Shown here piece by piece: positions 12,001 through 25,466 of a stretch of 40,336 nt of DNA. The notes under the pieces are model-generated. The model was not told the origin of the DNA, did no database searches, and saw only the letters and a list, made by a program, of their open reading frames with translations. How positions within the stretch are numbered: position 1 is the stretch's first letter; every line of letters begins with the position of its first letter. The stretch is from the IMG/VR virus record IMGVR_UViG_3300020465_000037, positions 1-40,336 of that record; one strand, 5' to 3'. The position numbers and the translations under genes are program-made. The DNA is from a virus.

Positions 12001-15000
12001 TGACAGAGTTAAGATTGGTCAAGATTCAATATCATTCACTTGTGGAATGGATGGAAATACATCTGTTAAGACTTATCCTAGGACTACCGATCCTCAGTTT
12101 AATCAGTGGATGCCTATTAGTAATATCACTCATGATACATTTGAGGTTAATGTAGGTACTTCACCTCAGTCTACACATAACGTAACTAATGCTAATTACA
12201 ATCCAACATCAGGTAACATGGAACTTACCATTGGATCTCATTCATTAGATATTGGTGATAGTATTAAGATTAAACCTAATTCATTAACATTCACTTGTGA
12301 TTTCAATGGTGATGGTAACACAACTCAGAAGACATATCCAAGATCATCTGGTGCTTCTACTGGAAATGGTAAGGATTATGTATATGATACTGCTATACCA
12401 ATTACTGCTAAGACTGGTACAACAATTACAGTTAATGTTAACGGAAATCAGGGAGCAATCACTGACGAAACAGCACACATCTGGGCTGGTGGTACTTCTG
12501 CTGGTGCTGTAATTTCTGGTGGTGGTTATGCTCATACATTTAACACTGCTGCTCCTAATGGACTTAAGGTTGCACATGAAGCATTATGGATTGAGAATCA
12601 GTCATTAGTATTCAAGTGTCTCTTAGATGATAATGCAACTGAGCACTTCTATCCTCGTGCAAACGGTCAAGGAAATGCTACTGCTGATGATCCATATTAT
12701 GATACTTCTATTCCAATACAATCTGTTACTGCTGATAGTGTAGTAGTTAACGTTGGTATTTCTTCTAATACTTCTCAGCATACATTTGTAAGATCTGTTA
12801 ATGCATTCACACCTACAGGTGCAACATTCACACCTGGTAGTGGACTCCTAGTATTAACAATTGCTGGTCATCCATTTGCTAATGGAGACAAGATCCAGAT
12901 TAAGGATGAGTCTATCGTATTCAGATGTCAGCAAGATAGTTTCGGAAGTGACCACGCATATCCTAGAAAACAGGATCCTGCATCTAACAATGCATGGTTA
13001 ACTGTTACTTACATAGATGCTAACTCTTTCTCAGTTAACGTTGGTACATCATCTAATACTACAACTCATAACTTCACATCTGCTGAGACAGGTGCAATTA
13101 TTAGAGGTGTTGTTAAGGGTGGTGGATCTTATACTCACGCATTTGTAAGTGCTGAAAATAATGGTTTGATGAGAGAGAATACAACAATCAAACTTGATGT
13201 TGGAGAATCTCATGCTACTGGTTATGGAGTAAGTGGTGCATCTTACGTACCTGGTACTGGTCTTCTAACAATGACCATCGGTACCCATCAACTTAAGGTT
13301 GGTAATTACGTTAAGATTGCAAACAAATCAATGGTCTTCCGTTGTGATCAAGACTCACAAAATTCTGATCACTGGTATCCACGTCCTACAGGATGGGGTG
13401 GTGCTTCAGGTAATGACCCTGCATACAATAATAGAGTTGAGATTACTGCTGTTACTGCTGATGGTATCACAGTTGATGTTGGTACATCTTCTAACACCAC
13501 AACTCACGCATTCCAAAACGCTAATAACACATACTCCACAGAGACTGCATCATACAATCCTGCTAGTGGATTTATGACACTCTCTGTACCTAGAGAGAAG
13601 AAGACTGCTTCAGGTGCAGCATACAACCCAACATCTGGTACTTTAGAATTAACAATCGGTGCTCACACTTTAACCACTGATGATACTATTAGATTGTTAC
13701 CTAACTCTCTAACATTTACATGTGATTATGGTGGAGACGGAAACGTAACTACTAAGACATATCCTCGTGCTGCTGGTGCTCTTACAACAGATGGTGCTGA
13801 CTATGCATACAATAATGAGTTAGATATCACTGCTGTAGACCAAGCTGGTGGAACAATTACGGTTAACGTTAATGGTGGTCAAGGTGCTATCACTGACACT
13901 ACTACTCATGTATTCCAGTCTTCTACTGCAAATGGTATCATGGTTGGTAACGGATTCATTAATGGTGAGTACGTTAAGATTGCAGATAATTCATTAACAT
14001 TCACATGTAAGAAGGATAACAATGTTACTAACCATTCATATCCTAGATCTTCAGATCCTTCAAGTGGAAGATGGTTGAAGATTTCTAATGTTAATTGTGA
14101 CCTCTTTGATGTCCAAGTATTAACAGATATACCTTCTACAAATACAACAGTACATACATTCGTTTCTTCTAACGCATCTAACGTCCAAAGATCTATTGTT
14201 ACTATCGGTGGTGAGTATACTCATACATTCAATTCTGCTCTCACAAACGGTGTTACTGTTGGTGGTAACTATACACATACATTTGCTGATGCGAAGCATA
14301 ATGGTCTTCACAGACAATCTGGTAAGATTACTGTTGATGTTGAAGTTGCACAAACAACTGCTGACATGTATGACCACACATTTGTAAGTGCTCTAGCTGG
14401 TGCTGTTATAGGTGGTGGTAGTTACAGACATACATTCGTATCTGCTGATACTAATGGAGTTGTTAAGGCAAATGATTATGTAATGTTTGATGACTTCTCA
14501 TTATCATTTACATGTGATCTTGATAAGGATGAAACTCCTCATACATATCCAAGACCTACTGACCATGCAAGCAATCAATGGTTACCAGTACACAATGTAT
14601 CTACAACCAAATTTGATGTTGGTGTATTAGGATTCAATATGATTCCTTCCTCATTCCTTGGTACTCATTCATTTGTATCTGCTAAGAAGGAAGGTCTTAA
14701 GAAACAAGACGGTACTATTACAATTAACGTTGGTAAGTCACCAGCTGGAAATACATATCAGCACACATTTGTAAGTGCTAATGCTGGTGCTCTGGTTCAG
14801 GGTGGTAATTACAGACATACATTTGTATCTGCTGCTTCTAACTGTATTACTGTTGCTAATGATGGTACTCAGTTAACACCTACAGACGCATACTATGAGC
14901 CTACAAGTGGTCAGTTAACTCTAACTGTCGCAGGTCATAGTCTTGGTACTGATGATGCTGTTATCATTGATAGTAATTCACTAACCTTTACATGCTCACA

Positions 15001-18000
15001 GGATAGCAACCAGACTAACCACACATATCCACGTGTTACAGACTATGCTGATGGACAGAAATTACCAGTCCAACATGTTAAGTCATGGGCGTGGCCTACA
15101 AGATCTGATCTAGATTACTATAGATCACGTCTAGTTGATCCTGCATATAATGGCAATGAATCTCTCAACGTAGAAAACGAGCTTACTACTCTTGTTACTT
15201 TCGCAACTGATGCATTCAGTAGTCCTAATACTATTGCTGGAAGATCTTACACCCTACCAACTGTATGGCCTGTCAAGTACACTCCTGATGTAGTTGCTAG
15301 AGATCTAACAATTACATACGATACATCTGGTGGTGGTCAAGATTCTAATGGTAACTGGGTTGGCACATGTAATGAAACTGCTTCTGCAATTAATACAATT
15401 GCTGACATATACATCAACACTATATCTCAGGCACAAAATAATAATCAAAACTATCTTGTTAATAGTGTAACTAAGACATTCCCATCTGCATATACTAATA
15501 GTAACTATCAGTCAGGTACATGTTACAATGTCCAGTCTGCTATCGATACATTATTCGATAGTATGTCAACCACTCTTGGTGCTGGCACATATAATAATAA
15601 GATTATAGCTAACATGATTCTCTTCAATCAGCAAGCAATTTCTGGAAGAGCATTCTCTGATACACAAGCAAGTTACCCATCTACTAACTTAACTATTGAC
15701 TTCTGTAATGATGTCCTCAAGGCAGTCCGTTATGACTTGATTACAGGTGGTAATGCTGGTGCATTTGCAATGACACAAGATTGGTTTGATGGTGAAGGTA
15801 ACTTTATTGCATTCCAAGATGTTGTTAGATCTCAGATTCTATTCGCTCTAACAAGATGTAGAGAATACATTAAGAGTATCATGTATCTTGTTGGTACTGA
15901 TAGTGTTTGGGATAACTATGATGTATGGCAACCAGCTGAAAGACTTGAGTGGAATCAGGAAGCAGTTGAGTTTATAATTGACTCTTCACTTAACCCAATT
16001 GAGTTTGCTCTAGAAAGATCATCCTTCCCAACAGAAGCAAGAGTTACATTCGTTGCATCTACTGATGCTATTAACAGAGTTACCAAGTATGAGGTAGGTT
16101 GGGATTACAATACTGACCCTGCATTGGTTACACTAACTCCTGAAGTTGAAGTTGGATTTGATCGTGCTGAGTATAGAATTAGAATTAACCGTGCTAACAA
16201 CTTCAGACGTGGTGACGTACTAAGTTACATTCCTGCATCTGATACATCATTATCTGGATTGACAAATCAACCTTACTTCTATTGCTTGACTGCTACTGCT
16301 GAGTGGTTTGAAATTGGTGCTTCTTACATCCATGATGGAAGATTTAGAATCTTACAGGTAGATACCTCTAACGATGGATCACAAATCATGGCAGTTGTAC
16401 AGAGAAGTGGTATTACACGTAATGCTCCAGTATATGCAATTGATCCTTCAGATACACCAATCCAAGGTGGATTCAATCCTGCTGACGTTATCTACGGTAG
16501 TGTTTCAGGTGCTGAGTCTGAGATAGGAAGAATACAAAATAACGAAGCAAGTATCCGTAAGTTGTATACACATTATCCTATCACTGGAATGTCAACAACA
16601 CAGGGTGGTGAGTATGAGATCTTTGCAAATGGTGAGACAGTTCAAGTACAAGGTGCTGGATCAAATACTGGTTTCGTAATGCAGACTGAGAGGTCTACTG
16701 ATGGTACATCATTAGTTAAACTACAAACTATCGCTGGTACTATTAATCAAAATGATGTATTAGAAGGTCAGACAACTGGTGCTACAGGTACTGCTGGTAT
16801 TCCAACTGATAGATTCTTACTTAATGTTTCTATGGGTGCATTTGCAGCAGGCGATTGGTTCTTCTCTAAAGAATCTAATACTGAAGGATATATTGATGAA
16901 TATGTTAATAAGTCTGGATCACTAACAGGTAATACTGGTGGTCGTATCACAATTGATGTTGAAACAATCGATGCTCAGTGGGTACCTGGCGATGTTATCT
17001 ACGGTAGTGTTACTTCATACATCCTTTCAGTTAAGGGTATAAGTGGTACACAGATTCAACTTAACCAGTACATACATGGTACTGCGGTCTATGAATTAGA
17101 TCTTGGAGTTGCAATCGTTGATATCGGTACTAATGATACATTCCGTGTTGGTGATGAAGTATCACTCCTACAAGGTACAACTGAGAAGAATCCAGGATTC
17201 AAAGCAACTGTAACTAATTACATTAATGGTTTAGAACTTGAGAATACAGATCCTAATTATGGCATACACAAACTCTGGGTTGGTAACGTAATTCCAGTAG
17301 GCACAGGTGAGACAATTGATGCTGTAACACAAGGCACAAATAACATTGGTAAGATTGATCTTGGATCTAACTTCCCAAGCATATATGCTAATGTTACTAA
17401 CGTAACTACAACAACTTACTCATCATACGCTAAAGTCGTATCAATCGAGCAAGTTGGTATTACTGCTGAGATCTGGGTAGAAGACGCATCTGGTTTATTC
17501 GTTGATAATATGTCAGTTATATCTGACTTCGGATGGGGTGGTGCTATTTCTTCTGCTCGCACACTTGAGGGTAGAGTTGACAGATACTTCAGAGGATTTG
17601 ATGGTAGTCAGACACAGTTTGATTTAACTATCTCTAATGGTGAAGCATACTTCCCAGACCCTGCTGGACACATATTAACATTTGTTAATGGTATCCTACA
17701 GCCTCCTGGTGGTAATAACTCTTACGTTGCATTCTCTGATAAGATTCAGTTTGCTGAGGCACCTGTAATTGGATCACAATTCGTTGGTTACTATGTTGGT
17801 AAGTTACGTCAATTAGATGATATCAGTTATGAGTTTGACTCATTGAGATCTTCCTTCAACCTTAAGAGATCTGGATTATTCTACTCCTTGACTCTAACTG
17901 AAGGTGTTTCATCTAACGTTATCCGTCCTGAGAATAATATTATCGTATCACTTAACGGTGTTATACAGGAACCTGGACTCGCATATGAGATTGTTGGTTC

Positions 18001-18883
18001 ACGATTAATCTTCGCTGAAGTTCCACGTGCGGGATCAACTTTCGTTGGTTTCTCATACATTGGATCTGACGCAGACGTTATCGCAGCAACAGTTGTACCA
18101 CCAATCGAAGCTGGTGACAAACTTGAAATAGACGGTGAAGAATTTGCTCGTGAGGTTGCTCTAATTGAGTCTTCAAACTCACTAATCACATTCGAGTACA
18201 CTGGATCTGTTAAGGGTAGAAACGCTGCTGCTATTGCTGCTATCACTTCTGGACAGATTACAAATGCTAACCTAACCAATTCTGGTGATGGTTACGTTTC
18301 ACGTCCTAACGTTGATGTTATCTCCTCCTCTGGATTTGATGCTCGCATCAAGGCATTGATGGGTGTTACTAGAATTGATGTTAAGACTGCTGGTATTGGA
18401 TATGCATTACCAAACGTTACTATAGACAATGAAGTACCTGATAGTTTCACAACTCCAGAAGGATCTCCAATTAACGGTGGATTTGACGTACTCGCTGGCG
18501 AAGGATCTGAATACACAGGTGGTGCTGGAGATATTGAAGCTGGCACAATCGCTATCACTACAGACCCAGTTAACGTAACTGTTAACCAAGGTTACTCTGC
18601 TGCATTCACAGTTGTCTCTACCGTAACTAACGATCAGACAATGAATTATCAGTGGCAGAAGAAGGAGTATGGTACACAAACATGGAGCAACATCATTGGT
18701 GCTAACCAGTCAACATACAACACTCCAAATACAACACAAGCTGATGACAGTGACGAATATCGTGTTGCGATCACTGCATCTGGAGCAACTCCAGTTTACT
18801 CACTATCTGCGATATTGAGCGTCCAGACTGGTGCTACAATCCTAAGCAACTTCTTACCAACACAAATCTTTGATGACATCTAA
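2..18883 (+). CDS. Giant modular repeat virion protein (5' partial, at least 6293 aa)
   Basis: The frame is open from the first in-frame codon of the window to TAA at 18881-18883, so the true start lies upstream. Modules in order: helical C..D/GGN modules (about 860-4430), a ConA-like lectin domain among them (about 2130-2610), a second lectin-like domain (about 4640-5160), about 32 F-T-C...YPR beta repeats (about 5195-15085), another helical module (about 15360-15800), short beta modules including two copies of an NG(I/V)(L/I)Q motif (about 17580-18060), and an Ig-like domain (about 18540-18830). There are no membrane segments and no catalytic motif that I recognise. Its place upstream of gene 8 and its fibre-like repetitiveness suggest a baseplate-attached fibre or adhesin; that role is inferred. 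T4 has gene 7 before gene 8, and I see no gp7-like sequence in the visible part. The reading frame is certain; the function is not. Confidence 0.9.
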   Translation: MQGESTDTIATVIDSGTNHLDVINVVGGTGTFDLNEQIVRGEIFAALVESVTLINSDTIFEFGEAVTNLDGDTAYIEETNVDVQGNVNDRLVVSKTSGTPRFETGIFDLKLNEYIYSASSKIAGQITYIAPYTDPVTGDPVDELIINKGSTFFGLLFERLVSLTNPNVILDDISQSSITPTKLYDSANRINADFLDFEEVRTTEITYSQLSGGTLAENEIIRNKKVIYGNPVSAFHGIAANRFLDGKRNIANNKQEIIDFAEASIAVEFEDYYFPSDVITNPWSRYKDAYRLIQKNRALIAGMAFDDMKTQYPGSSIPSDDKCKRDIGLFIDAITIDMYAGGNRYSRKFIQQFFDTNGNLTYVNAQAAETRFAYEKAKDRCLVALANGYSGTINAANSGDSWVAYQDLTITADPSPNDAYGTAGSNTSNTDSENCSDVQSALSTLWEFIDEALNISSLTELPDETEGTYSPHQEKCRRDLGYFIDSIAEDIGSGGNYNIVEFTKKFFDAAGVPLTNGIVGEEAEAVFAFNSARTLMYQAINNLMYWKELNTAGYNLNDPTTYSGGVAPANTFDANYASGNNQDINNCANVKSYVDTLAGIATTAMTAGNLTNVNSLALVSDGTFVANETVRTIKLAYKDKSSGLFITNDQIKGITSGAVFSAIGVNSGLKWLFAGPITGTFQNGEYLTNSTLTNTNCSQSVIIKKAELEGNKSIYIPTNGHIVATESKDFEFGTGDFTIEGWIRPAANVGTQVLVDFRRLTAAQGLNILMDGQKLKVYNGTTNTILSTDVFATTGTWYHISVCRSSGVTQAFVNGSQVGSNYVDTNDYLYGGAYVGADFNLANSWAGHIDNFVIKKGVGDRQANFTSPNTIDYDVDTIVFGLDGEAPFVCSTTDCYATFCGQNSSSATAKSIDYSDRDIIVEDVDTGRAEQKRCAEIIDLNAAWIAEEAVGRMKVAFPDFTIRGDDPGNNVYGGTNLCVRDTKDYILGALIKDLQEGGDFHTIYTARTYLTASGKLDHIAAEILQSLYTWNEVFKICIDVITTTSSDLTGEYSTRLRIPNNFSTPASSNTTDEVNTLGENLLKVVAPMDQRFREGGYQLWKNRDYIAEEVAGFIQNKYEKDIDGITFDFLEMPGYGQPYCERDVKDFILPAVIADLATGGTYQTEAVIDKYLDNQQNVIHVESELNPMLDAFEHTKLLCFKAINNLLLSSGEAASELGAIAPSYIQEEYYSPLYTARAAYRDENIVIDTEAYPQGPTGRNSNDRYLDAADVIWNNRRIIAKECVAIMNDLSKYENLQIPGGAVNCEDDVLDMIEAAVHDLRFDCNEKTYDAAALYIETEDNSLKHIEGEWEASITVVKILRDIMTMTMRNAFGRDYIEGTDLQTTPVQSYNQNPREEMYQKCGDAIDGNIRYIAEQAVAAGLVQFPNLLIPGGPANCVHDVTDILRSLAFNLKYGGNNWMQYSAEFYTTYNGALDHVAAQSAETIWIMNKAKEFALRAMKGQVITNAAGHNVDQRFYDAVPRPNNSLFNSLVDTGIIVSQPNNLVTRSFIAGEDKISTTDSGTGIVTSEDAVFRCVTKLPSSPIDSCLFEAGDSTSGVWFGIRDSGTYLRLRAGDGTNAYTGGANYNDNGLAMLDLQISNLSTYFDDGDHELVWEIRIGGNLGTGSGRVKLWIDGTPVGEASTPGANYTGLTGGGGIFASSNFAGYAIGGGNLVNGESATVNTFTINVGPAPKIEYDINHASYDSSNGDMVMTIGSHNQTVGTFLSLATNSINFTCDQDNNASTHSYPRSGDPAGNAAVEVIAVGATAHTVEDAEYNPENGSMSITLPFHGMTDSTMHTISDATYDPETGLLVCQSNAHGFQTGDQIQIKNGSIIFTCAQDNHSTKHGYPRAKDPAGDAWMLVEQVTTNSFTVNVGQTPKIEYNVSDANYNQIDGELELDIGQHRFVGADMHVASHAEYVATKGLLTLTVPGHKITKGEQIQIFDNSMTFTCSMDNYYSEHVYPRSTDPCSGKWLDVVESDIDGGTFTVNVGESPTVGWNPTAASFNSTTGQLTLTVGNGHGLTTGTNIKIASQSLSFTCAMDDHASVHQYPRHVDPIHNEPTPIVGVTNDAIVVNVGKTPEQQYDVNGATFTPADGKLVLTTDRKTTLRQSSDHSISTASYNGQTGLMRLKITNHGFSAGDYVKVADGGVSFTCSMDANASVHAYPRSTDPMSDKWMDIRNVSKDEFDIFVGRTPEIPFLVTDADFNPITGHMQITIGDHNLRNGQSIRFAKESLTFTCFLDAHQSLHPYPRSSGSNFSGNGGADPFYNKPCPIIHDGSPLTATTGTSYNPTTGIMTVACDSAHGLSNGDEVKFKENAVTFQCLEDNNGSNHAYPRSGDPYANRWIAVSNVGLYTFDVQVLSYAPSTNTTTHTFVQGSTGGITKKDGTITLDVGQSSDTTDHTFIPHVGYTPTSAVYNPVTGILNLTIDGHGFENGDKIKIDNNSLTFTCALDVHTTKHTYPRPSDPFSGNWFEVSNVTSQSFDVQVLTDIPQSNTTLHTFIGASPNCVHRAAIVTGGIYDHTYSTSVTNCVRHAGDSVRIKDNGLTFRCAADGNSSNHTYPRSAVTTHTPSHVGYDPNTGQLTFHVDNHGFLPYSYVKIADESLSFSCKKDITRHTPTAIDYNPTTGVAEITIGQYHGLTTNDMIMITPESLVFTCDFNGDGNVTEKKYPRATGAATSNGKDYAYDAYLPINSVSADSVFVNFNGGQGAITDTSTHTFRPGDENIECVTGVVVSAHLYPRATDPVAGKWCQIQDTTANTFVVEVLDVIPSTHVTAHAFLSATNNCITHKKDHFYDTNIPVWEIGETDHTPSTISYNPTEGSMQITVANTFLGPNEITPTMCTFYPTTGILRLTKNGHTVKNGDMLMIRDSVFTFRCDKDSQASDHRYPRPSDPVSGKWLKAFNIGSNTFDLQVGNLYGDSPISNTTTHNCTVIETGAIYHARDFVRFDENAITFTCSKDNNQSDHTYPRRSDPTYRQWLPIRNVSTTGFSVQVGKSAINDVYDHQFVSVDTNSLHRQTGTVTLDVGNGQITNPTTHSFQSAVSGALVAGGQYAHTFIPGTETYTVTNANYLPATGMMTLTIPNHGFHDGESIKINNNSLTFRCLQDSLGSPHSYPRSSDPVSGKWITISNCTDDTFDVQVLENIPSTNTTLHQFESATPNGVTRAQVVTGGNYSHKFVAPAQLTPTNVAYNPTTGVMTITSAKHGLQNGGRIKVQDGFVTMTCTQDSNQTNHSYPRKNDPYSDEWMKVSNVTEDTFDVQVLFNIPSSNTSTHSFVSAVPKSITVATMMKGNDSIKIAADGLTFTCSKDGNSTEHSYPRITDPAYNNSLRIIDDGVTRHTPTAATYTPSSGVLAMTVVKHGFSNGDFIKLDDYALHMNCTMDDNSSDHAYPRGTDPISGKWVQISNVTQDAFEVNVGTTSAAQFTPTDASYDPYTGMLELNIGSHSLKQGQHVKLADGAVTFTCDMDQNGSQHAYPRTTIDSFTPTGADFNGNTGYLTLTITNHGLDNGSLIKIADNALSLNCTMDGNTSAKTYPRSSDPISGKWKPVENVTDNTLDIFVGKSEFRSFDPQNVEYNQSNGNMVITVGPDHGIEVNDSIYINEYSMMFTCNLDSHSSDHTYPRANGVGGATANDPAFRNAINVTAVDDSTITVNVNPSPGTDSNHAHIFKPAVGKTPTNVTYSGASGVMTITIPDHGMLDGEQVLIEDNALIFTCAKDDHASEHAYPRHGDPASNKWLTISNVTQDTFRVQVLDKVPSTNTDTHTFVTAKVNSILRGTIRKGGSFSHTFVSAVGGGVTHKRDRAYDHSIEIKDVGHAEYTASGAAYNAETGVLTLTVLNNPFSNGNRIKLKPNSLVMTCDMDGNATNHSYPRKGIDPSYDKWLEVSGVSGNNLNIQVGKTSRANYLVSDATYEPTTGDMTLKIGPHGYKGGSTHTITDAGYDPISGKLTVTIPSHGFTIGDRVKIGQDSISFTCGMDGNTSVKTYPRTTDPQFNQWMPISNITHDTFEVNVGTSPQSTHNVTNANYNPTSGNMELTIGSHSLDIGDSIKIKPNSLTFTCDFNGDGNTTQKTYPRSSGASTGNGKDYVYDTAIPITAKTGTTITVNVNGNQGAITDETAHIWAGGTSAGAVISGGGYAHTFNTAAPNGLKVAHEALWIENQSLVFKCLLDDNATEHFYPRANGQGNATADDPYYDTSIPIQSVTADSVVVNVGISSNTSQHTFVRSVNAFTPTGATFTPGSGLLVLTIAGHPFANGDKIQIKDESIVFRCQQDSFGSDHAYPRKQDPASNNAWLTVTYIDANSFSVNVGTSSNTTTHNFTSAETGAIIRGVVKGGGSYTHAFVSAENNGLMRENTTIKLDVGESHATGYGVSGASYVPGTGLLTMTIGTHQLKVGNYVKIANKSMVFRCDQDSQNSDHWYPRPTGWGGASGNDPAYNNRVEITAVTADGITVDVGTSSNTTTHAFQNANNTYSTETASYNPASGFMTLSVPREKKTASGAAYNPTSGTLELTIGAHTLTTDDTIRLLPNSLTFTCDYGGDGNVTTKTYPRAAGALTTDGADYAYNNELDITAVDQAGGTITVNVNGGQGAITDTTTHVFQSSTANGIMVGNGFINGEYVKIADNSLTFTCKKDNNVTNHSYPRSSDPSSGRWLKISNVNCDLFDVQVLTDIPSTNTTVHTFVSSNASNVQRSIVTIGGEYTHTFNSALTNGVTVGGNYTHTFADAKHNGLHRQSGKITVDVEVAQTTADMYDHTFVSALAGAVIGGGSYRHTFVSADTNGVVKANDYVMFDDFSLSFTCDLDKDETPHTYPRPTDHASNQWLPVHNVSTTKFDVGVLGFNMIPSSFLGTHSFVSAKKEGLKKQDGTITINVGKSPAGNTYQHTFVSANAGALVQGGNYRHTFVSAASNCITVANDGTQLTPTDAYYEPTSGQLTLTVAGHSLGTDDAVIIDSNSLTFTCSQDSNQTNHTYPRVTDYADGQKLPVQHVKSWAWPTRSDLDYYRSRLVDPAYNGNESLNVENELTTLVTFATDAFSSPNTIAGRSYTLPTVWPVKYTPDVVARDLTITYDTSGGGQDSNGNWVGTCNETASAINTIADIYINTISQAQNNNQNYLVNSVTKTFPSAYTNSNYQSGTCYNVQSAIDTLFDSMSTTLGAGTYNNKIIANMILFNQQAISGRAFSDTQASYPSTNLTIDFCNDVLKAVRYDLITGGNAGAFAMTQDWFDGEGNFIAFQDVVRSQILFALTRCREYIKSIMYLVGTDSVWDNYDVWQPAERLEWNQEAVEFIIDSSLNPIEFALERSSFPTEARVTFVASTDAINRVTKYEVGWDYNTDPALVTLTPEVEVGFDRAEYRIRINRANNFRRGDVLSYIPASDTSLSGLTNQPYFYCLTATAEWFEIGASYIHDGRFRILQVDTSNDGSQIMAVVQRSGITRNAPVYAIDPSDTPIQGGFNPADVIYGSVSGAESEIGRIQNNEASIRKLYTHYPITGMSTTQGGEYEIFANGETVQVQGAGSNTGFVMQTERSTDGTSLVKLQTIAGTINQNDVLEGQTTGATGTAGIPTDRFLLNVSMGAFAAGDWFFSKESNTEGYIDEYVNKSGSLTGNTGGRITIDVETIDAQWVPGDVIYGSVTSYILSVKGISGTQIQLNQYIHGTAVYELDLGVAIVDIGTNDTFRVGDEVSLLQGTTEKNPGFKATVTNYINGLELENTDPNYGIHKLWVGNVIPVGTGETIDAVTQGTNNIGKIDLGSNFPSIYANVTNVTTTTYSSYAKVVSIEQVGITAEIWVEDASGLFVDNMSVISDFGWGGAISSARTLEGRVDRYFRGFDGSQTQFDLTISNGEAYFPDPAGHILTFVNGILQPPGGNNSYVAFSDKIQFAEAPVIGSQFVGYYVGKLRQLDDISYEFDSLRSSFNLKRSGLFYSLTLTEGVSSNVIRPENNIIVSLNGVIQEPGLAYEIVGSRLIFAEVPRAGSTFVGFSYIGSDADVIAATVVPPIEAGDKLEIDGEEFAREVALIESSNSLITFEYTGSVKGRNAAAIAAITSGQITNANLTNSGDGYVSRPNVDVISSSGFDARIKALMGVTRIDVKTAGIGYALPNVTIDNEVPDSFTTPEGSPINGGFDVLAGEGSEYTGGAGDIEAGTIAITTDPVNVTVNQGYSAAFTVVSTVTNDQTMNYQWQKKEYGTQTWSNIIGANQSTYNTPNTTQADDSDEYRVAITASGATPVYSLSAILSVQTGATILSNFLPTQIFDDI
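860..4430 (+). repeat. Six helical C..D...GGN modules in the giant protein
   Basis: Six diverged copies share a helix of the type N...IA.EA, then C(x)2D, a helix ending in DL, then GGN or a variant, and an aromatic-rich segment (FFD, YL or FY). The anchor Cys codons are at 968, 1427, 2933, 3419, 3914 and 4310. Examples are CKRDIGLFID, CRRDLGYFID and CVRDTKDYIL. Copy 5 replaces GGN with DCN. A related Cys motif, NC(S/A)(D/N)V(Q/K)S, appears at about 1303 and 1756. I do not recognise the family. The alternation of helices makes a solenoid-like or bundle fold plausible. Confidence 0.75.
2130..2610 (+). other. ConA-like (LamG-type) lectin domain in the giant protein
   Basis: The segment has the hallmarks of the laminin-G/concanavalin-like fold: an FGTGDFTIEGWIRP strand near its start, a GTWYHISVCRSSG strand followed by a FVNGSQVG hairpin in the middle, and a WAGHIDNFVIKKGV strand near the end. 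Such domains often bind glycans, and in a virion protein they usually serve surface adhesion. It sits between helical modules 2 and 3. The fold call is fairly strong; the ligand is unknown. Confidence 0.8.
4640..5160 (+). other. Second lectin-like beta-sandwich domain in the giant protein
   Basis: After helical module 6 comes a domain with the strand pattern of a ConA-like sandwich: SGVWFGIRDSG, then LRAGDGTNAYTGG, HELVWEIRIGG, and RVKLWIDGTPVGEA, ending in a Gly-rich stretch. The ligand-display hairpin RVKLWIDGTPVG matches the FVNGSQVG hairpin of the first lectin domain. It directly precedes the YPR repeat array. Assignment is by pattern only. Confidence 0.6.
5195..15085 (+). repeat. About 32 tandem F-T-C...YPR beta repeats in the giant protein
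   Basis: By hand count there are about 32 copies. A full unit reads: Y(x)P.TG.(M/L).(L/I)TI..HG(x)3G(D/E).I(K/R)I..(N/D)S(L/V).FTC..D(x)5H.YPR..DP.S.KW..(I/V)SNVT..(T/S)F.V.VG. The Cys, Asp, Ser/Thr, His and YPR core is the most conserved part. One copy (about 7945-7960) loses YPR and another (about 8335) keeps only YPR. Inserted between many units is a second short repeat, (Y/T).HTFVSA..NG(V/I). Copies are clearly diverged at DNA level, so the array looks old rather than freshly expanded. I do not recognise a named family; an elongated beta fibre is the natural reading. Confidence 0.9.
15360..15810 (+). repeat. Seventh helical C..D...GGN module, downstream of the YPR array
   Basis: This stretch holds GTCNETASAIN, then GTCYNVQSAIDTL (Cys near 15520), a helix with FNQQAISGRAF, then DFCNDVLKAVRYDL followed by ITGGN and QDWFD (Cys codon 15704-15706). 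It matches the six modules found upstream of the lectin-like domain and YPR array, which shows that the helical series resumes after the array. Confidence 0.75.
18540..18830 (+). other. C-terminal Ig-like domain of the giant protein
   Basis: The segment has a P.NVTVNQGYSAAF strand, a central YQW, an IIGANQSTY strand, and EYRVAITASGATPVY near its end, the usual order for bacterial and phage Ig-like domains. A short tail of about 16 residues follows. The next gene ends in a clearly related domain. Ig-like domains in tailed phages commonly decorate virion surfaces. Confidence 0.75.
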
Positions 18884-18891: not shown

Positions 18892-20484
18892 ATGAGCGCA
18901 ACAGCAACCTATAACCAAGGTACTAAAATACTTACGGTGGCATCCAATGGATTACCAACGCCAGTGGCACATGGTACATTTCCTAACGATAATAACCCTA
19001 ATGTACCTACTGAGCAAGATTTTGATCACGATTTCTTGTATAGAGGCGGTACGTTCGGTACCTCTAGGACATTCGATTCCAATGTGTATACACATGACGG
19101 ATTCATTCGTTCAATAGCATTATCAGTAACTGATCTTACTATCTTTACTGGTGGTAATATTGTTGCTGGTGACCATGTAATGTTTAAGTTTAGTGATGGG
19201 TTGCACTTAAGATATCTTTATAAAGGTACTGAGTTTACTTCTATCTCTGGTGAGTTCTGGTTAGCAGCAGATGATAGAATAGATTTAATCATGGATACTC
19301 AGGAGATTACTCCTGTTAATGGTACATATGAGTATTGGGATAGTAGAAATGGTAGAGGTGCCACGCCACTGGGGAACATAGGAGTTGCTGGTAATGGAGT
19401 TGCTATTTTTAACCCGTCTGCTGGTACTGGATTAAATCCACCTGCTGGATTCAGTTGGGTTGCTGCTGGAGATGCCCCTTTTGTTGATTCTGGAGAAGAT
19501 GATTGTGGTGGACATCCTACACAGTCAGGCGAATACCATTATCATGACCCACATTTCTTAGATTGTTGGAAAACTAATTCAACAATGGCAAGTTATAACG
19601 ATTATTACGGTAATACACAGTTTAATGGTAATAATATTCGTCATCCTGACGGTCATTCTAAGATAATTGGCATATGTTTTGACGGATTTCCCATCTATGG
19701 TCCTTTTGGATATAGTAGTCCATTCGATAATTTGAGTGGTACTCGTACAATGAGGACTCAATATGGTGTAAGAGACCAAGAAGCACCTGGTAGACCTGAT
19801 TATGGCACGGATTCTGACAATCCTCCTGCTGGTGCACTCATGGAAGACTATGAATATGTGGAAGGTAGTGGAGATTTAGATATTCATAACGGTAGATATT
19901 GCTTTACACCTGAATATCCCACTGGAACGTACGCATATTTCCTAACAGTAGACCCAGATGACAATAATATAACAAAATTCCCTTATATTATTGGCAATAC
20001 TACTAGAGAAACTATTGATACTGGATATACTGTTTCACCTGTATCCAGTGGTGGTGATGGTGGAGACGGTGGAGACCCTCCAATACCTCCAACTTTACAA
20101 TTTACATTACAACCACAGAATGTTACTATCAATTCTGGTCAAACTGCTACCTTCAACATACAGAAGTTGGTAATACCAGAGGACGGACCTGTATCATATC
20201 AGTGGTATAGATCTACAGACGGTGGTTTCGCATTCGCTGTGATCACTGGTGCTACTACAGACACCTATTCTCTAACTGCATTACCCTATATGACAGGGTA
20301 TCGCTTTAGATGTCGTATAACTGGTCCAAATGGTGCACCAGTACCTGCTTCTAACTCACCATTAGATTCACAAGCAGCAATATTGACAGTAACTGGTGCT
20401 GGTGATGGTGGAAGCACTGATAATAGATTCGATAGTACAGCATCTACTATGGATTCTACCTTACAATCTTATGATGGTACCTAA
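18892..20484 (+). CDS. YHYH-domain virion protein with C-terminal Ig-like domain
   Basis: The 530-residue product contains a YHYH domain (Pfam family of that name): YHYH at residues 215-218 within GEYHYHDPHFLDCW, then GICFDGFPIYGPFGY near 260-274 and NGRYCFTPEYP further on. These are the family's defining stretches. The domain's biochemical role is not established; its concentration of His and Cys suggests metal binding, which is inference. A Gly/Asp-rich linker near residues 385-395 leads to an Ig-like domain at about 400-505, with YQWYRS and YRFRCRITG, related to the one ending the upstream gene. No signal peptide is seen. The ATG follows the upstream stop by eight bases, with no clear Shine-Dalgarno sequence. 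Its place in the structural cluster suggests a virion component, perhaps an adsorption or decoration protein. Confidence 0.88.
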   Translation: MSATATYNQGTKILTVASNGLPTPVAHGTFPNDNNPNVPTEQDFDHDFLYRGGTFGTSRTFDSNVYTHDGFIRSIALSVTDLTIFTGGNIVAGDHVMFKFSDGLHLRYLYKGTEFTSISGEFWLAADDRIDLIMDTQEITPVNGTYEYWDSRNGRGATPLGNIGVAGNGVAIFNPSAGTGLNPPAGFSWVAAGDAPFVDSGEDDCGGHPTQSGEYHYHDPHFLDCWKTNSTMASYNDYYGNTQFNGNNIRHPDGHSKIIGICFDGFPIYGPFGYSSPFDNLSGTRTMRTQYGVRDQEAPGRPDYGTDSDNPPAGALMEDYEYVEGSGDLDIHNGRYCFTPEYPTGTYAYFLTVDPDDNNITKFPYIIGNTTRETIDTGYTVSPVSSGGDGGDGGDPPIPPTLQFTLQPQNVTINSGQTATFNIQKLVIPEDGPVSYQWYRSTDGGFAFAVITGATTDTYSLTALPYMTGYRFRCRITGPNGAPVPASNSPLDSQAAILTVTGAGDGGSTDNRFDSTASTMDSTLQSYDGT

Positions 20485-20508: not shown

Positions 20509-21990
20509 ATGGCTAAACAAACACTCAGTATTGGTACTACCGCCAATGACGGCACAGGCGACAGTCTGAGAGATGGTGCTATCAAATTGAATCAAGTCAT
20601 TGATGAAATTTACACCAATCTAGGTAACGATACCAATCTTCAAGTCAACGTAGGTGCTCCTACGAATGGACAAACTCTAATATGGAATGGTGCTCAGTTT
20701 GCTGAGAGTCATTTCGCTGCATTTACAGCTGATGTAGATGTATCTGGACAGAAAATCATATCATCTAACAACGGTGACATAGTTGTACAACCTAACGGTA
20801 GTGGTGATATCAAATTCTGGGCAGCAAACACTGGATCGGCACTTACCTATATTGATGGTGCTGATGGTAAACTAAAATGGTCTAATGACTTTGCAACATC
20901 TGGTGATTTACCAGCATTTACTGATCATAAAGGAATGTTTGGTGTTGTTATCGATGAGGCTGCTGCATACTATGCAACTAATACAGCGTGGACTAAGATA
21001 ATAGACACGACATGTAGTGTAGGGATGCTTGATGACGTAGATATGACAGTCGGTGGAGGTCCGAGTGATGGTCAAGTACTTAAATGGTCCGCTTCTAATC
21101 TTGCTTGGGAGCCTAAAAACGATGAGGCAGGATCTGGTGGAGGCGGTGGAACGACTCAAAACCTTTTTGAAGGAATCACTGCTGACACTGGCAGTACTAC
21201 TGCTAGTGCTCCTACTGATGTTCTTACAGTTGCGGGAGGCACTGAAATCTCGACTGCAATCGTCGGAGACACCCTCACAATAAACATGACAGGCACCCTT
21301 GGTGACCTAAACCAAAATGCCTATGGTGTTATTGGAAGTGATTCAGGAAATAAAACAGCAAATGCTGCTACTGCTACTATTAATTTACTTGGTGGCACTG
21401 GTATAAGCACTGCTATATCAGGAGACAACCTTACAATCACTAATGATGCTCCAAACGTATCACAGAATATATTCCAAACAATCGCTGGTGACTCTGGTAC
21501 AACTGCTGCTGGAAGTGCAACTACTACATTAACCGTAGCGGGTGGTAATGGAGTTACAACTGCTGCAACAGCAGATACGATAACCCTAAACGCAGATCTT
21601 TATCTTTCTGGAAGTGCATCCAATAATGATAATATTATATTCAATGGTACTTCATGGGATCCTGTAGAGAGTCCTACAGTTGGTTTCAATATTACTGCAC
21701 CTACCATGAATGATTATCAATTCTCAGGTGGTGGTATGGATTCATCAGCAAATAATCCAACAATCTATGTTTATAGAGGATTCACATACAGATTTAACAA
21801 CACTTCTGGTGTAGCACACCCATTTGAATTAAGACAGTCAGCAGGTGGTGCTGCTTTAAATGTAGGTGTTACTGGATCTACTACAGGAGTCCAATATTAT
21901 ACTGTGCCTCAAAACGTTGCTGCTGGCACAACATATGTTTATCAATGCACACTCCATCCTTCAATGGTTGGTAATATAACAATCGTATAA
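20509..21990 (+). CDS. Virion structural protein with C-terminal type-1 copper cupredoxin domain
   Basis: The 493-residue product has three parts. The N-terminus (about 1-60, starting MAKQTLSIGTTANDGTGDS) resembles the anchoring end seen in structural proteins of T4-like cyanophages. Residues about 217-365 hold three tandem beta repeats of the form F..I..D.G.T.A....LTVAGG.GI.TA..GDT.TI. The last 100 residues form a plastocyanin/amicyanin-like domain: a YVYRGFTYRFNNTSG strand, H437 in AHPFEL, and C480-x2-H483-x2-M486 in YQCTLHPSM, a spacing identical to that of amicyanin. All four expected copper ligands are present. A free-standing plastocyanin is ruled out because the domain is fused to a structural protein. 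Late promoter motif upstream; the next ATG follows the stop by one base. Copper binding itself is inferred. Confidence 0.88.
   Translation: MAKQTLSIGTTANDGTGDSLRDGAIKLNQVIDEIYTNLGNDTNLQVNVGAPTNGQTLIWNGAQFAESHFAAFTADVDVSGQKIISSNNGDIVVQPNGSGDIKFWAANTGSALTYIDGADGKLKWSNDFATSGDLPAFTDHKGMFGVVIDEAAAYYATNTAWTKIIDTTCSVGMLDDVDMTVGGGPSDGQVLKWSASNLAWEPKNDEAGSGGGGGTTQNLFEGITADTGSTTASAPTDVLTVAGGTEISTAIVGDTLTINMTGTLGDLNQNAYGVIGSDSGNKTANAATATINLLGGTGISTAISGDNLTITNDAPNVSQNIFQTIAGDSGTTAAGSATTTLTVAGGNGVTTAATADTITLNADLYLSGSASNNDNIIFNGTSWDPVESPTVGFNITAPTMNDYQFSGGGMDSSANNPTIYVYRGFTYRFNNTSGVAHPFELRQSAGGAALNVGVTGSTTGVQYYTVPQNVAAGTTYVYQCTLHPSMVGNITIV
21679..21987 (+). other. Cupredoxin domain with complete His-Cys-His-Met ligand set
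   Basis: Residues 391-493 of the preceding gene. Ligand codons: His437 at 21817, Cys480 at 21946, His483 at 21955 and Met486 at 21964. The distance from the first His to Cys, 43 residues, lies between those of amicyanin (39) and plastocyanin (47). Strand order and the C-terminal MVGNITIV strand also match the family. Confidence 0.85.
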
Positions 21991-21991
21991 T

Positions 21992-23896
21992 ATGACAAGA
22001 ACAGTCCCTGGCTCTGGTGCACAAATCTTCCCTGTATTTAATAGTATATCAGGGGTGAGAGATGTCTATGTGACTAATCCTGGGAGTGGATATGACCCTA
22101 ATGACCCTCCAAGACTTCGTATTACGAATTGTGGTACGCCTATTCGTGATGCTGTACTAAGACCTGTAATAGAAGGTAGTGCTGGAGAGATTACTGCTGT
22201 GGAAGTGTTAGATCCTGGTGAAGGATATAACCCATTAACATTAGTAGTTGAAGATGATGCATCTGATAATCATGCAGATGGTATAGTCTTCCTTAAAGAA
22301 GACGGTAGTATTGATTTCATTCAGATGACCACACCTGGTGATGGTTATTTTGATGCTACTGCTCGCATTGAAGGTGGTGGTGGATCTGGTGCTGAATTGG
22401 TACCAATCACAGGATTGATAACTGGTCTTTCTATTGAAGAGCAGGGTAGAAACTATACTGAGGAAGACGTTAACCTTATTATTTCAGGTGGTGGAGGACA
22501 GGGTGCAACTGGTGTTGCTGCTGTTAATCCATTCGGTCAGGTTACATCTATTACCTTAACAAATCAAGGTGAATTCTTCGAGGATCCTCCTCTTATACAG
22601 ATAATAAAAGGCGGTGGATCGGGTGCAACGGCCGAAGCGTATATTAACCTCGGACAGATTACAAGCATTAACCTCTTGGCAGGTGGCGGTGGATATAGTA
22701 CGCCTCCTGAGATTATCTTTACTAGGGATACTAACCTTATTAGAGAAGCAAGAGTTAGACAGTCGTTAAATGCAGTTACATACAACCTTACAGGTATTAC
22801 AACTGATTTAACTTCAAGTCAAACAGAAATACCAGTTGAAACTACTGCACCTTTCCCAGGTTCAGGTAAAATTCTACTGGGTAGAGAGTTAGTTAGATAT
22901 ACAGGTAAGACTGAAGCAGGTATAGATGGTGCCTTATATGACGCATTCACTGGATGTGATAGAGGTATTAATTTCCGTTTCGATCAGAAGGTCATACTTG
23001 ATAATCTACAGGACAACCCTGATACTGGATTAACTGCTTATAGTTTCAGTGTTACTGATAAAGTAAGAAGGGTTGAAGAGTCATCTAACAACCGAGTTGC
23101 TATAGTATATGACTGGGATCCTGTCCAGAGAGCACTCTATTTAACCTTCGAGGTTGATGAACTAGCGTTTATTGATGGTGGTAGATCAAATGAGAAGGCA
23201 AAGAATATAGCATTTGTTGGTGGTACTTCTGGATCATCAGGTACAGGTATTGAGCCTCACGTCTTAGTTGAAGTAGAAGGAAGTGACATTGTTACTTTCA
23301 CTGTACCACTAGGTCTTATTCTTAATAGAGCATTTGAGGATGATGATGAAGAGTATACTGATAGTGAAGGTATACAAAGATTTGGTGATGGTATTATTGA
23401 CCTTGTTAACACAGGTACAGACTTTGAAAACCAGATTAATCTAGATGGTGGTATCGCATCGTCTAAATATGGTATAGAGGAAACACTTGGTGGACAAAAC
23501 ACCACTCTATTACAGATTGGTGATCAGATATATGACGGTAGTCAGAATGCATTAGTTGCAACTGTGCAGTCTGCTGGTCAACTTGGCGACGGTGATACTC
23601 ATACATCGACTGCATCTATTATAATAGAATATACTACACAAAATCTTCACTATGTCGAAGCAGGCAATGGTGCAGAAGAGTTAGAAGGTGTTACAACTGG
23701 TGTTAAGTGTACGTCTGTTAGTAGAGTATCTGGACCAAAGTCAAATCAATACACTATTGATGTTAAGAGTCTAGTTAATAGCGGTGACACTTATAAGTTT
23801 AATGTAGGTGAAGTGCTTAGAGGTAATGTCTCTGGAGCATTAGCCAACATCAAAGCTGTTGAATATAATACATTCTCCCGAAACGAGGGTGAATAA
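21992..23896 (+). CDS. Beta-repeat virion structural protein with G.GY repeats
   Basis: The 634-residue product starts with about six tandem repeats of the form (I/V)..(I/V).(V/L)..PG.GY..PP..I.(I/F)..GG..GA.A.(A/P)(I/V), for example NPGSGY, DPGEGY, TPGDGY and GGGGY, between about residues 20 and 250. Next comes a module with an EIPVETTAPFP strand and KILLGRELVRYTGK (about 22795-22970), then CDRG, which recurs in the DUF4815 gene downstream. The C-terminus carries a GEVLRGNVSGALANI motif shared with several neighbours. There is no catalytic motif or membrane segment. The ATG follows the previous stop by one base, so it is probably translationally coupled. A peripheral baseplate or fibre protein is likely; no T4 counterpart is recognisable. 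Confidence 0.82.
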   Translation: MTRTVPGSGAQIFPVFNSISGVRDVYVTNPGSGYDPNDPPRLRITNCGTPIRDAVLRPVIEGSAGEITAVEVLDPGEGYNPLTLVVEDDASDNHADGIVFLKEDGSIDFIQMTTPGDGYFDATARIEGGGGSGAELVPITGLITGLSIEEQGRNYTEEDVNLIISGGGGQGATGVAAVNPFGQVTSITLTNQGEFFEDPPLIQIIKGGGSGATAEAYINLGQITSINLLAGGGGYSTPPEIIFTRDTNLIREARVRQSLNAVTYNLTGITTDLTSSQTEIPVETTAPFPGSGKILLGRELVRYTGKTEAGIDGALYDAFTGCDRGINFRFDQKVILDNLQDNPDTGLTAYSFSVTDKVRRVEESSNNRVAIVYDWDPVQRALYLTFEVDELAFIDGGRSNEKAKNIAFVGGTSGSSGTGIEPHVLVEVEGSDIVTFTVPLGLILNRAFEDDDEEYTDSEGIQRFGDGIIDLVNTGTDFENQINLDGGIASSKYGIEETLGGQNTTLLQIGDQIYDGSQNALVATVQSAGQLGDGDTHTSTASIIIEYTTQNLHYVEAGNGAEELEGVTTGVKCTSVSRVSGPKSNQYTIDVKSLVNSGDTYKFNVGEVLRGNVSGALANIKAVEYNTFSRNEGE

Positions 23897-23930: not shown

Positions 23931-25466
23931 ATGGCATTACTTACCGACCAATTTAGAATATTTACTGCCGAAAGGTTCAGGAAGGCACTTGAAGGGCCAA
24001 ATCCTACTCAGTCTGACCTGGAAGCGGGTACTAGTCGGGATCGCCTTTATGTGTTTATCGGTAGACCCCAACCATGGGATAACGAAAACGCACCTCCAGA
24101 CCCAGTAGATTCATTCCAAGAATTTTCCGATGACTATTCGGATATGATCTCCCTGAAGAGGGTGTTAGCAAATGACACCATTCAGGTTATCCGTCGTACT
24201 GACTGGATTCCCCCTGAGCAAACCACTGGTGGCTTGGGATATGTTTATGATATGTATCGTCATGATTACTCCTCGACTAAAACTGCATCATCGGGTGCGA
24301 CTAAACTTTACGACGCTGATTTCTACGTTGTTAACTCGTCTTACCAAGTTTATAAATGCATTTACAACGGCACCAGTCCTAGTGATCCTAACGGTAAACC
24401 TAGTACTGTTGAGCCTACTGGCACCTCCACTTCAATTATCACAACTGCTGATGGTTACCGTTGGAAGTATATGTTTACGATCCCTGTTGGTCAGGTCTTA
24501 AAATTCTTCTCCAACGAGTACATGCCTGTGTTGTTTGACACTGCTGTTGTTGCTGATGCTATCGGTGGAGAGATTGATACCATTGTTATTGGATCATCTG
24601 GTGCTGGTTATAACAACGGTACCTATGAAAACGTGCCTATTAAAGGAGACGGAGTTGGTGGTAGAGTTTCACTTGTTGTAGATGGTGGTCGTATTGCCTC
24701 TGCTACTGTTACATCTGGTGGATCTGGATACACCTTTGGTAAAGTAATCATCGATGAAGTCAACGGTATTGGTGCTGGAACAGGTACTGGTGGTAGCGTT
24801 GAGGTTGTTATACCTCCTACTGGAGGACATGGTGCTTCCCCTGCAACTGAGTTGGGTGGTTTCCGTGTGATGATCAACACTAAGTTCACCTACGATGAAG
24901 GATCTGGTGACTTCCCAACTGATAACGACTATCGTCGTATTGGTTTGGTAATTAATCCTAACAAGTTTGGTACACAGGAATTAACGTCCGACCTGACATT
25001 AAGTGCCACAAAGGCTGCAATATTTGCACCTACGTTTACTGGAAACTTCCAGACTGACGAGATTATAACCCAGTCTCGTACTGTTGGTGGTCAACAGGTA
25101 ACGGCAAGAGGACGTGTTATATCATGGAATGCAACTACTAAAGTCCTCAAGTACTACCAGAATAGAATTGATGGTATCTTCCCTGAATTCACTGGTAACT
25201 TAATTGAGTTTGAAGGTGGTAACCCAATTGTGGGTGCTATCTCAGGTGCATCTGCTGACCCAGATATTAACTTCCCTATTGTTTCTGGATCCTCCACGAG
25301 GGTTATTAACAATGCTGAGTATGACCTAGGTATGGCATTTACCAACGGATATGCAAAAGCAGAAGTTGATCCTAACTCAGGTGATGTTATCTACATAGAT
25401 AACAGAGGAGCAATTACTCGTGCTGGAGACCAAATTGAAGACATCAAAATCGTAATCGAGTTCTAA
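23931..25466 (+). CDS. gp8: Baseplate wedge protein gp8
   Basis: The 511-residue product matches T4 gp8 along its length from memory of that sequence: FTAERFRKAL aligns with the T4 N-terminus, FIGRPQPWDNEN with FGRSEPWSSNEN, VIRRTDW with VIPRRDW, a YRWKYMFTIP strand followed by NEYMPV with YVWEYLFEIP and NEYIVV, RRIGLVINP with RQISIITNP, and the end IYIDNRGAITRAGDQIEDI with IYMENRPPIIMAMDQTEEI. In T4, gp8 forms part of the baseplate wedge with gp6, gp7, gp10 and gp53. This protein is about 175 residues longer than the T4 one (334). Much of the extra length is a Gly-rich insertion at about 212-305 with repeats of G.GY type like those of the upstream gene, plus a second insertion at about 350-460 with VGAISGASA. 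Late promoter motif upstream. Confidence 0.93.
   Translation: MALLTDQFRIFTAERFRKALEGPNPTQSDLEAGTSRDRLYVFIGRPQPWDNENAPPDPVDSFQEFSDDYSDMISLKRVLANDTIQVIRRTDWIPPEQTTGGLGYVYDMYRHDYSSTKTASSGATKLYDADFYVVNSSYQVYKCIYNGTSPSDPNGKPSTVEPTGTSTSIITTADGYRWKYMFTIPVGQVLKFFSNEYMPVLFDTAVVADAIGGEIDTIVIGSSGAGYNNGTYENVPIKGDGVGGRVSLVVDGGRIASATVTSGGSGYTFGKVIIDEVNGIGAGTGTGGSVEVVIPPTGGHGASPATELGGFRVMINTKFTYDEGSGDFPTDNDYRRIGLVINPNKFGTQELTSDLTLSATKAAIFAPTFTGNFQTDEIITQSRTVGGQQVTARGRVISWNATTKVLKYYQNRIDGIFPEFTGNLIEFEGGNPIVGAISGASADPDINFPIVSGSSTRVINNAEYDLGMAFTNGYAKAEVDPNSGDVIYIDNRGAITRAGDQIEDIKIVIEF

Follow-up and report, generated by a model that had tools for sequence, protein, structure and literature searches.

The gp9-like protein and its cupredoxin domain

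The window, that is, the whole 40,336-base stretch of a virus record analysed here, carries a structural gene cluster of the T4-like cyanophage type. Its genes follow one another in the order 6203-aa giant structural protein, 530-aa YHYH protein, 493-aa gp9-like protein, 634-aa protein, gp8 and 2441-aa protein, and the gp9-like gene and its neighbours are positioned as follows:

18892..20484, + strand: YHYH protein (PF14240), 530 aa, neighbour of the gp9-like gene (Pfam)
20509..21990, + strand: gp9-like baseplate wedge/tail-fibre connector protein, 493 aa (phrog_677 at 1.5e-135; profile of 24 homologues against T4 gp10 and gp9)
21992..23896, + strand: 634-aa protein, phrog_22827/phrog_708 (baseplate wedge subunit), next gene downstream of the gp9-like gene (phrog match)
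23931..25466, + strand: gp8 baseplate wedge protein (Pfam and phrog matches)

The gp9-like ORF sits in a cluster of baseplate genes that includes gp8 and a relative of phrog_708, and no redox enzyme or redox partner was recognised among the scanned genes beside it. The original prediction had placed this ORF between the YHYH protein and gp8, which is correct on the YHYH side; on the other side the 634-aa gene intervenes and gp8 lies one gene further.

Three parts can be distinguished in the 493-aa protein:

20515..20706, + strand: N-terminal T4_gp9_10_N domain (PF07880), residues 3-66 (37.8 bits against a cut-off of 25)
21157..21618, + strand: three beta-type repeats of ~50 residues each, residues ~217-370, putative stalk (sequence itself)
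21673..21987, + strand: C-terminal cupredoxin domain, residues 389-493 (AlphaFold2 model, Foldseek, VIA-align, BFVD)

Both the PF07880 domain and the match to phrog_677, which is annotated as 'baseplate wedge tail fiber protein connector', lie on this one ORF, as expected for a gp9-type baseplate wedge protein; as had been claimed, the domain is joined to a phage structural protein. The protein has no NCBIfam match, and the record of phage P-TIM40 names its own gp9-like protein 'baseplate wedge subunit and tail pin'. With a profile built from 24 homologues, the N-terminal part is matched to T4 gp10 (1.9e-11) and T4 gp9 (1.8e-8) and the C-terminal part to amicyanin (4e-4). The C-terminal part of T4 gp9 holds the long tail fibre; no counterpart of it was found in the cyanophage protein, the 24-homologue profile being aligned only to T4 gp9 residues 7-115. 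The three beta repeats that had been described ahead of the domain are directly visible, with starts near Q217, Q269 and Q319; this part has a mean gap of 0.31 among 23 homologues, and many homologues are about 406 aa long. A full-length model made with 11 close sequences is poor (pLDDT 47.8; values of 70 or more are limited to the C-terminal domain and some short segments), and hence we infer the geometry of stalk and tip.

In contrast to the full-length model, residues 385-493 alone were predicted by AlphaFold2 with a pLDDT of 94.9 and a pTM of 0.87, giving the Greek-key beta sandwich of a cupredoxin. Foldseek places amicyanin at the top (E 3.4e-5) and returns 28 chains at E 0.001 or better, including plastocyanin and the cupredoxin domain of Hyphomicrobium nitrite reductase, whereas the best VIA-align match is the N-terminal domain of Hyphomicrobium NirK (2dv6; Z 10.4, rmsd 2.4 Å over 93 residues). 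The comparison with amicyanin and plastocyanin that had been proposed for these residues therefore returned a predicted cupredoxin, and not some other fold. At the sequence level, amicyanin is matched in the PDB at E 0.18 by the single sequence and at E 5e-4 by a profile of 58 relatives. The window domain scores 15.3 bits against PF00127 (Copper-bind), under the cut-off of 21.2 bits, and so do the gp9 domains of S-SZBM1 (16.8 bits) and P-TIM40 (14.1 bits).

For 21679-21987, corresponding to residues 391-493, the original prediction had named four type-1 copper ligands, which are found exactly in place in the ORF:

21817..21819, + strand: His437, putative copper ligand (sequence and 85-copy alignment)
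21946..21948, + strand: Cys480, putative copper ligand (sequence and 85-copy alignment)
21955..21957, + strand: His483, putative copper ligand (sequence and 85-copy alignment)
21964..21966, + strand: Met486, putative axial copper ligand (sequence and 85-copy alignment)

The Cys, His and Met residues lie in the last loop of the predicted sandwich with C-x2-H-x2-M spacing, which is of the amicyanin type; amicyanin also ranks first by sequence and by Foldseek. In the model, one strand finishes at Cys480, Met486 immediately precedes the last strand and His437 is located just ahead of a strand, the same placement as in the known cupredoxin fold. A looser C..H..M search in all six frames of the window gave 14 matches, some of them spanning stop codons, and the motif by itself is hence no evidence; it is the predicted fold, together with the retention of all four ligands among relatives, that lifts the site above chance. 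Modelling and fold comparison thus predict with high confidence that the C-terminal domain of the gp9-like protein is a cupredoxin, with a complete putative type-1 site.

Conservation of the predicted copper site

Loci were gathered by patterns lying outside the ligands and were then searched with a ligand-masked profile. The two contig sets overlap, the same contig occurring under two locus ids, and counts are therefore also given without repeated sequences. In viral contigs, 134 ORFs with a gp9 N-terminus were found, 124 of which have the domain (121 complete and 3 cut by a contig end); the 10 others comprise 9 cut by a contig end and a single complete ORF of 197 aa (L240). The cupredoxin domain is accordingly present on 121 of 122 complete gp9-type ORFs, or 100 of 101 distinct sequences, L240 being the exception. 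The same fusion, the search for which had been suggested at the outset, is normal for the gp9-like family in marine T4-like cyanophages and not peculiar to this genome.

The four ligands are invariant in 24 of 24 relatives. For a larger set, only domain matches that began at profile position 12 or earlier and reached position 104 or beyond were taken, from 121 contig ORFs and 22 of the 23 isolate-file entries (window included). Reduction at 90% similarity left 85 non-redundant copies, 71 from contigs and 14 from isolates; no fewer than 5 of the 85 are on proteins without a recognised gp9 N-terminus. Despite a median pairwise identity of 48% and a minimum of 25%, the ligands are kept in 85/85 copies and do not vary freely. 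They account for four of the seven invariant columns among 107 (Gly, His, Pro, Tyr, Cys, His and Met), an outcome that a random placement of the invariant columns would give with a probability of about 7e-6. The ligand loop reads C-x2-H-x2-M in 82 copies, C-x4-H-x2-M in two and C-x2-H-x3-M in one, so the ligand residues persist while the loop length changes; known cupredoxins likewise differ from one another in the length of this loop. The invariant Pro directly follows the first His, a position at which plastocyanin and amicyanin have Asn, and the gp9 copper site may therefore differ from theirs.

A motif filter missed 9 of 109 distinct domains, namely three cut by a contig end, one partial domain (L174) and five on upstream proteins; the last had a short profile match or no Pro after the His, and all four ligands are visible in their ORFs. 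Among divergent copies checked by eye, 11 of 11 retain the full set of His, Cys, His and Met. The partial domain of L174 is a second one with the sequence CHHHTGQG, in which Gln stands at the place of Met and is possibly the axial ligand. Stellacyanin has Gln at the axial position. The domain has a median dN/dS of 0.28, taken over 65 pairs drawn from 12 sequences, and the rest of the protein a slightly lower value of about 0.22, which points to purifying selection on the cupredoxin domain. Judging from these alignments, selection for the four ligands over such divergence would be hard to explain without metal binding.

Distribution of the domain and relation to known cupredoxins

When 50,697 phage records were searched with the whole 493-aa protein, 328 matches were obtained, with the names Synechococcus, Prochlorococcus, 'Cyanophage' or 'Marine'. 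The domain alone matched 337 records at E 0.1, and a query with a more general family member matched 360 at E 0.001, including two Pelagibacter phage records and one from an Actinomycetia phage. The N-terminal part alone is found in 846 records, 342 of which are named Escherichia; since the domain queries miss these Escherichia records, the domain looks like an addition made in the aquatic group. A domain search of viral contigs confirmed at least 565 stretches among the 600 matches listed; one of the two patterns used in this search includes the ligand loop, so that alignment A3 is biased. Each of 23 isolate genomes, which were chosen for having matches, has at least one copy of the domain. 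Syn9 has one match and some genomes have several copper-type domains, for instance four matches in P-SSM2. No match was found at E 0.1 in the genome of the related cyanophage S-CREM2, and the domain is hence not indispensable.

The domain also occurs on other proteins. It is fused to an S8 (subtilisin-like) peptidase in two loci (L063 and L073, cyanophages ACG-2014e and S-CAM4), and is carried by a gp7-like protein of Bellamy, by a tail-spike-like protein of P-SSM2 with two copies and by fibre-like proteins of viral contigs. Matches to the domain in BFVD comprise gp9, proximal tail fibres, S8 and S74 peptidase-type proteins and a YHYH protein. Taken together, these sequences indicate that the cupredoxin is a module shared among tail-type proteins. 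For the YHYH domain, a function as a metal-dependent hydrolase associated with tails has been predicted (Iyer et al. 2021, PMC7824862), and the words 'cupredoxin', 'copper' and 'plastocyanin' are absent from the main text of that paper. Several further cases were noted. The YHYH proteins (PF14240) of L222, L226 and L227 have a cupredoxin domain of their own after the YHYH part, and in L160 the phrog_708 protein combines a YHYH part with a GHPM...CGYHRHM stretch that by eye is copper-type. The giant protein upstream of gp9 ends in a cupredoxin copy (THA...C-x2-H-x2-M) in L231, L232, L234 and L235, that of L231 being a phrog_701 match. A minor tail protein L (PF05100) of Marine virus AG-345-A17 (L065) has a cupredoxin-type insertion with C-x2-H-x3-M, and the large protein downstream of gp9 in ACG-2014d (L267) and S-ShM2 (L268) has a copper-type domain whose ligands are separated by a long insertion.

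Several known systems resemble the gp9 domain in part. Amicyanin of Paracoccus, a free periplasmic electron carrier, shares the cupredoxin fold, the His...Cys-x2-His-x2-Met ligands and a Y-x-C before the ligand loop; in contrast, the gp9 domain is the C-terminal part of a baseplate protein and has His-Pro at the first ligand in place of the His-Asn of amicyanin. The N-terminal cupredoxin domain of Hyphomicrobium NirK (2dv6, 6tfd) is also fused to a larger protein; however, it is part of an enzyme and has 25% identity to the gp9 domain. T4 gp9 (phrog_677, PF07880; baseplate wedge and tail-fibre socket) has the N-terminal domain, family and gene neighbourhood in common with the cyanophage protein, the remainder of which consists of beta repeats and the cupredoxin. 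The HxH sites of T4 gp37 and marine tail fibres are likewise conserved metal sites of phage tail proteins; they differ in binding octahedral iron in a trimeric fibre, without a cupredoxin or copper (PMC11705849).

Cyanophage plastocyanin, PetE, is a cupredoxin-family copper protein of the same phages; however, it is encoded by a separate short gene that exceeds the PF00127 cut-off, and such a gene is present in 17 of the 23 isolate genomes. The gp9 domain, being part of a 493-aa ORF and below the cut-off, does not fit this description and is distinct from free plastocyanin, as the original prediction had held. A metabolic copper protein and a structural domain are thus found side by side in many phages. 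For the same reason, a recent duplication of petE is unlikely as the origin of the domain, although an ancient link between the two may exist. The genome_contigs set was scanned for a cellular source with a single ligand-containing pattern, which gave three loci and no clear cellular ancestor. One, filed under a Rhodopirellula MAG (L160, NZVD01000020.1), was rejected since it carries a cyanophage-type cluster with phrog_677, phrog_708 and phrog_438 in order, and it is probably a binning error; a Thaumarchaeota locus was rejected since it lies on a protein with a tail-fibre-assembly match. The third locus, from Bacteroidetes, falls between ORFs of 150 aa or more.

Possible role on the virion

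The original prediction thus stands as regards the fold, the ligand spacing, the structural fusion and the separateness from plastocyanin, and its carrier can be refined to a gp9-like baseplate wedge protein. We hypothesize, with about an even chance of being right, that this protein consists of a baseplate anchor, a stalk and a copper-binding cupredoxin tip that serves as a docking module of a tail pin or fibre joint and not as a carrier in photosynthesis. The N-terminal gp9/10 domain would anchor the protein in the baseplate, and the short beta repeats would form a stalk with the cupredoxin as its distal tip. The tip, with its complete His, Cys, His and Met site, would most likely bind copper, which could be taken up after assembly or release and would hold the beta sandwich rigid and stable. 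Located at the edge of the baseplate, the tip could dock a long tail fibre or a component of the host surface, a structural or adhesive role and not that of a carrier in host photosynthesis. T4 genes 10, 11 and 12 are listed in a review among those not found in cyanomyoviruses (PMC2984593), which would leave room for gp9 as a pin or short fibre.

The oxidation state of the copper might instead shift when the copper meets a host redox partner or leaves the cell, and this could help to trigger the baseplate. All electron-transfer ligands are kept, including the weak axial Met that a purely structural metal site does not obviously need, and amicyanin, the closest of the solved structures by sequence and Foldseek, is an electron carrier; however, no redox enzyme or partner was recognised among the scanned neighbouring genes, free plastocyanin is encoded separately in 17 of 23 genomes and the occurrence of the domain on many unrelated tail-type proteins better suits a general binding module, so that we regard such a switch or electron-transfer module as unlikely. 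A similarly low probability is given to a functional site that holds another metal, or copper as a folding aid only, with a role limited to stability. Virion proteins often use metals structurally, and other soft metals could be bound by these four residues; among known cupredoxins, however, a Met and type-1 spacing are characteristic of copper. Host targeting or scavenging through copper, a counterpart of the Ferrojan Horse in which the metal engages a host metal-uptake protein or travels between hosts, appears quite improbable to us. It would agree with the several copper-type domains of genomes such as P-SSM2 (four matches) and with the iron in T4 gp37 and the iron-binding tails proposed for marine phages (PMC11705849); however, a dN/dS of 0.28 does not fit the rapid evolution that a specificity domain might show. 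We know of no link to a host copper receptor.

Cupredoxin-fold proteins without copper, such as the ephrins, exist, and the gp9 domain could likewise be a decayed copy in which the fold is kept as an adhesion module and the metal is lost. The Gln at the Met place in the partial second domain of L174 would be in line with such a loss, which nevertheless seems very improbable given ligands that are unvarying in 85 of 85 non-redundant copies and complete in all 11 divergent ones. A chance motif in an unrelated beta fold is hardly credible: the bare motif does occur by chance in the window, but chance would not account for the predicted fold, the PDB matches and the profile match to amicyanin at E 5e-4.

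Based on these sequences, marine cyanophages may carry copper on their particles. As a more far-reaching and rather doubtful proposal, most marine T4-like cyanophage virions would be copper metalloproteins, with a ring of blue-copper gp9 tips on each baseplate, in some phages also copper domains on fibres, S8 peptidases and YHYH proteins, and with the loading or redox state gating adsorption or the baseplate trigger. The ring would have 18 tips if gp9 is present three times per wedge, as it is in T4. In a widespread group of ocean viruses, the baseplate proteins appear to have an intact and strictly conserved type-1 copper site that the usual annotation (baseplate wedge tail fibre connector) omits. 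Should this site be loaded, the particles would carry a bioactive trace metal, with consequences for adsorption, stability in seawater and copper cycling, much as the idea of iron in phage tails implies for iron. In the open-licence PMC literature on cupredoxin, plastocyanin or copper in cyanophages or in phage tails, virions or baseplates, the titles and abstract openings listed contain no report of this domain in a phage tail protein; fold and site are both known, but no description of them in this position was found there.

With respect to virion composition, a virion protein table exists for S-CREM2 (PMC10665884); since the genome of that phage has no match to the domain, the table does not place it in the particle. 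Sullivan 2010 (PMC3037559) reported 41 virion proteins of S-SM1, including cluster GC969, and gp9 is not named in the passages of that article on S-SM1 virion proteins. The giant neighbour upstream of gp9 in S-SM1 is T4-GC969, and gp9 belongs to cluster T4-GC398. In the window, the 6203-aa giant protein matches phrog_701, phrog_5342 and phrog_1276. Its ORF (272-18883) contains by eye roughly thirty copies of a repeat with the pattern TFTC..D...S.H.YPR..DP, the conserved Cys, Asp and His of which suggest a possible role in metal binding or cross-linking, and a Laminin_G_3/concanavalin-like lectin domain is found at residues 634-764 of the translation of 272-9271 (2.9e-13).
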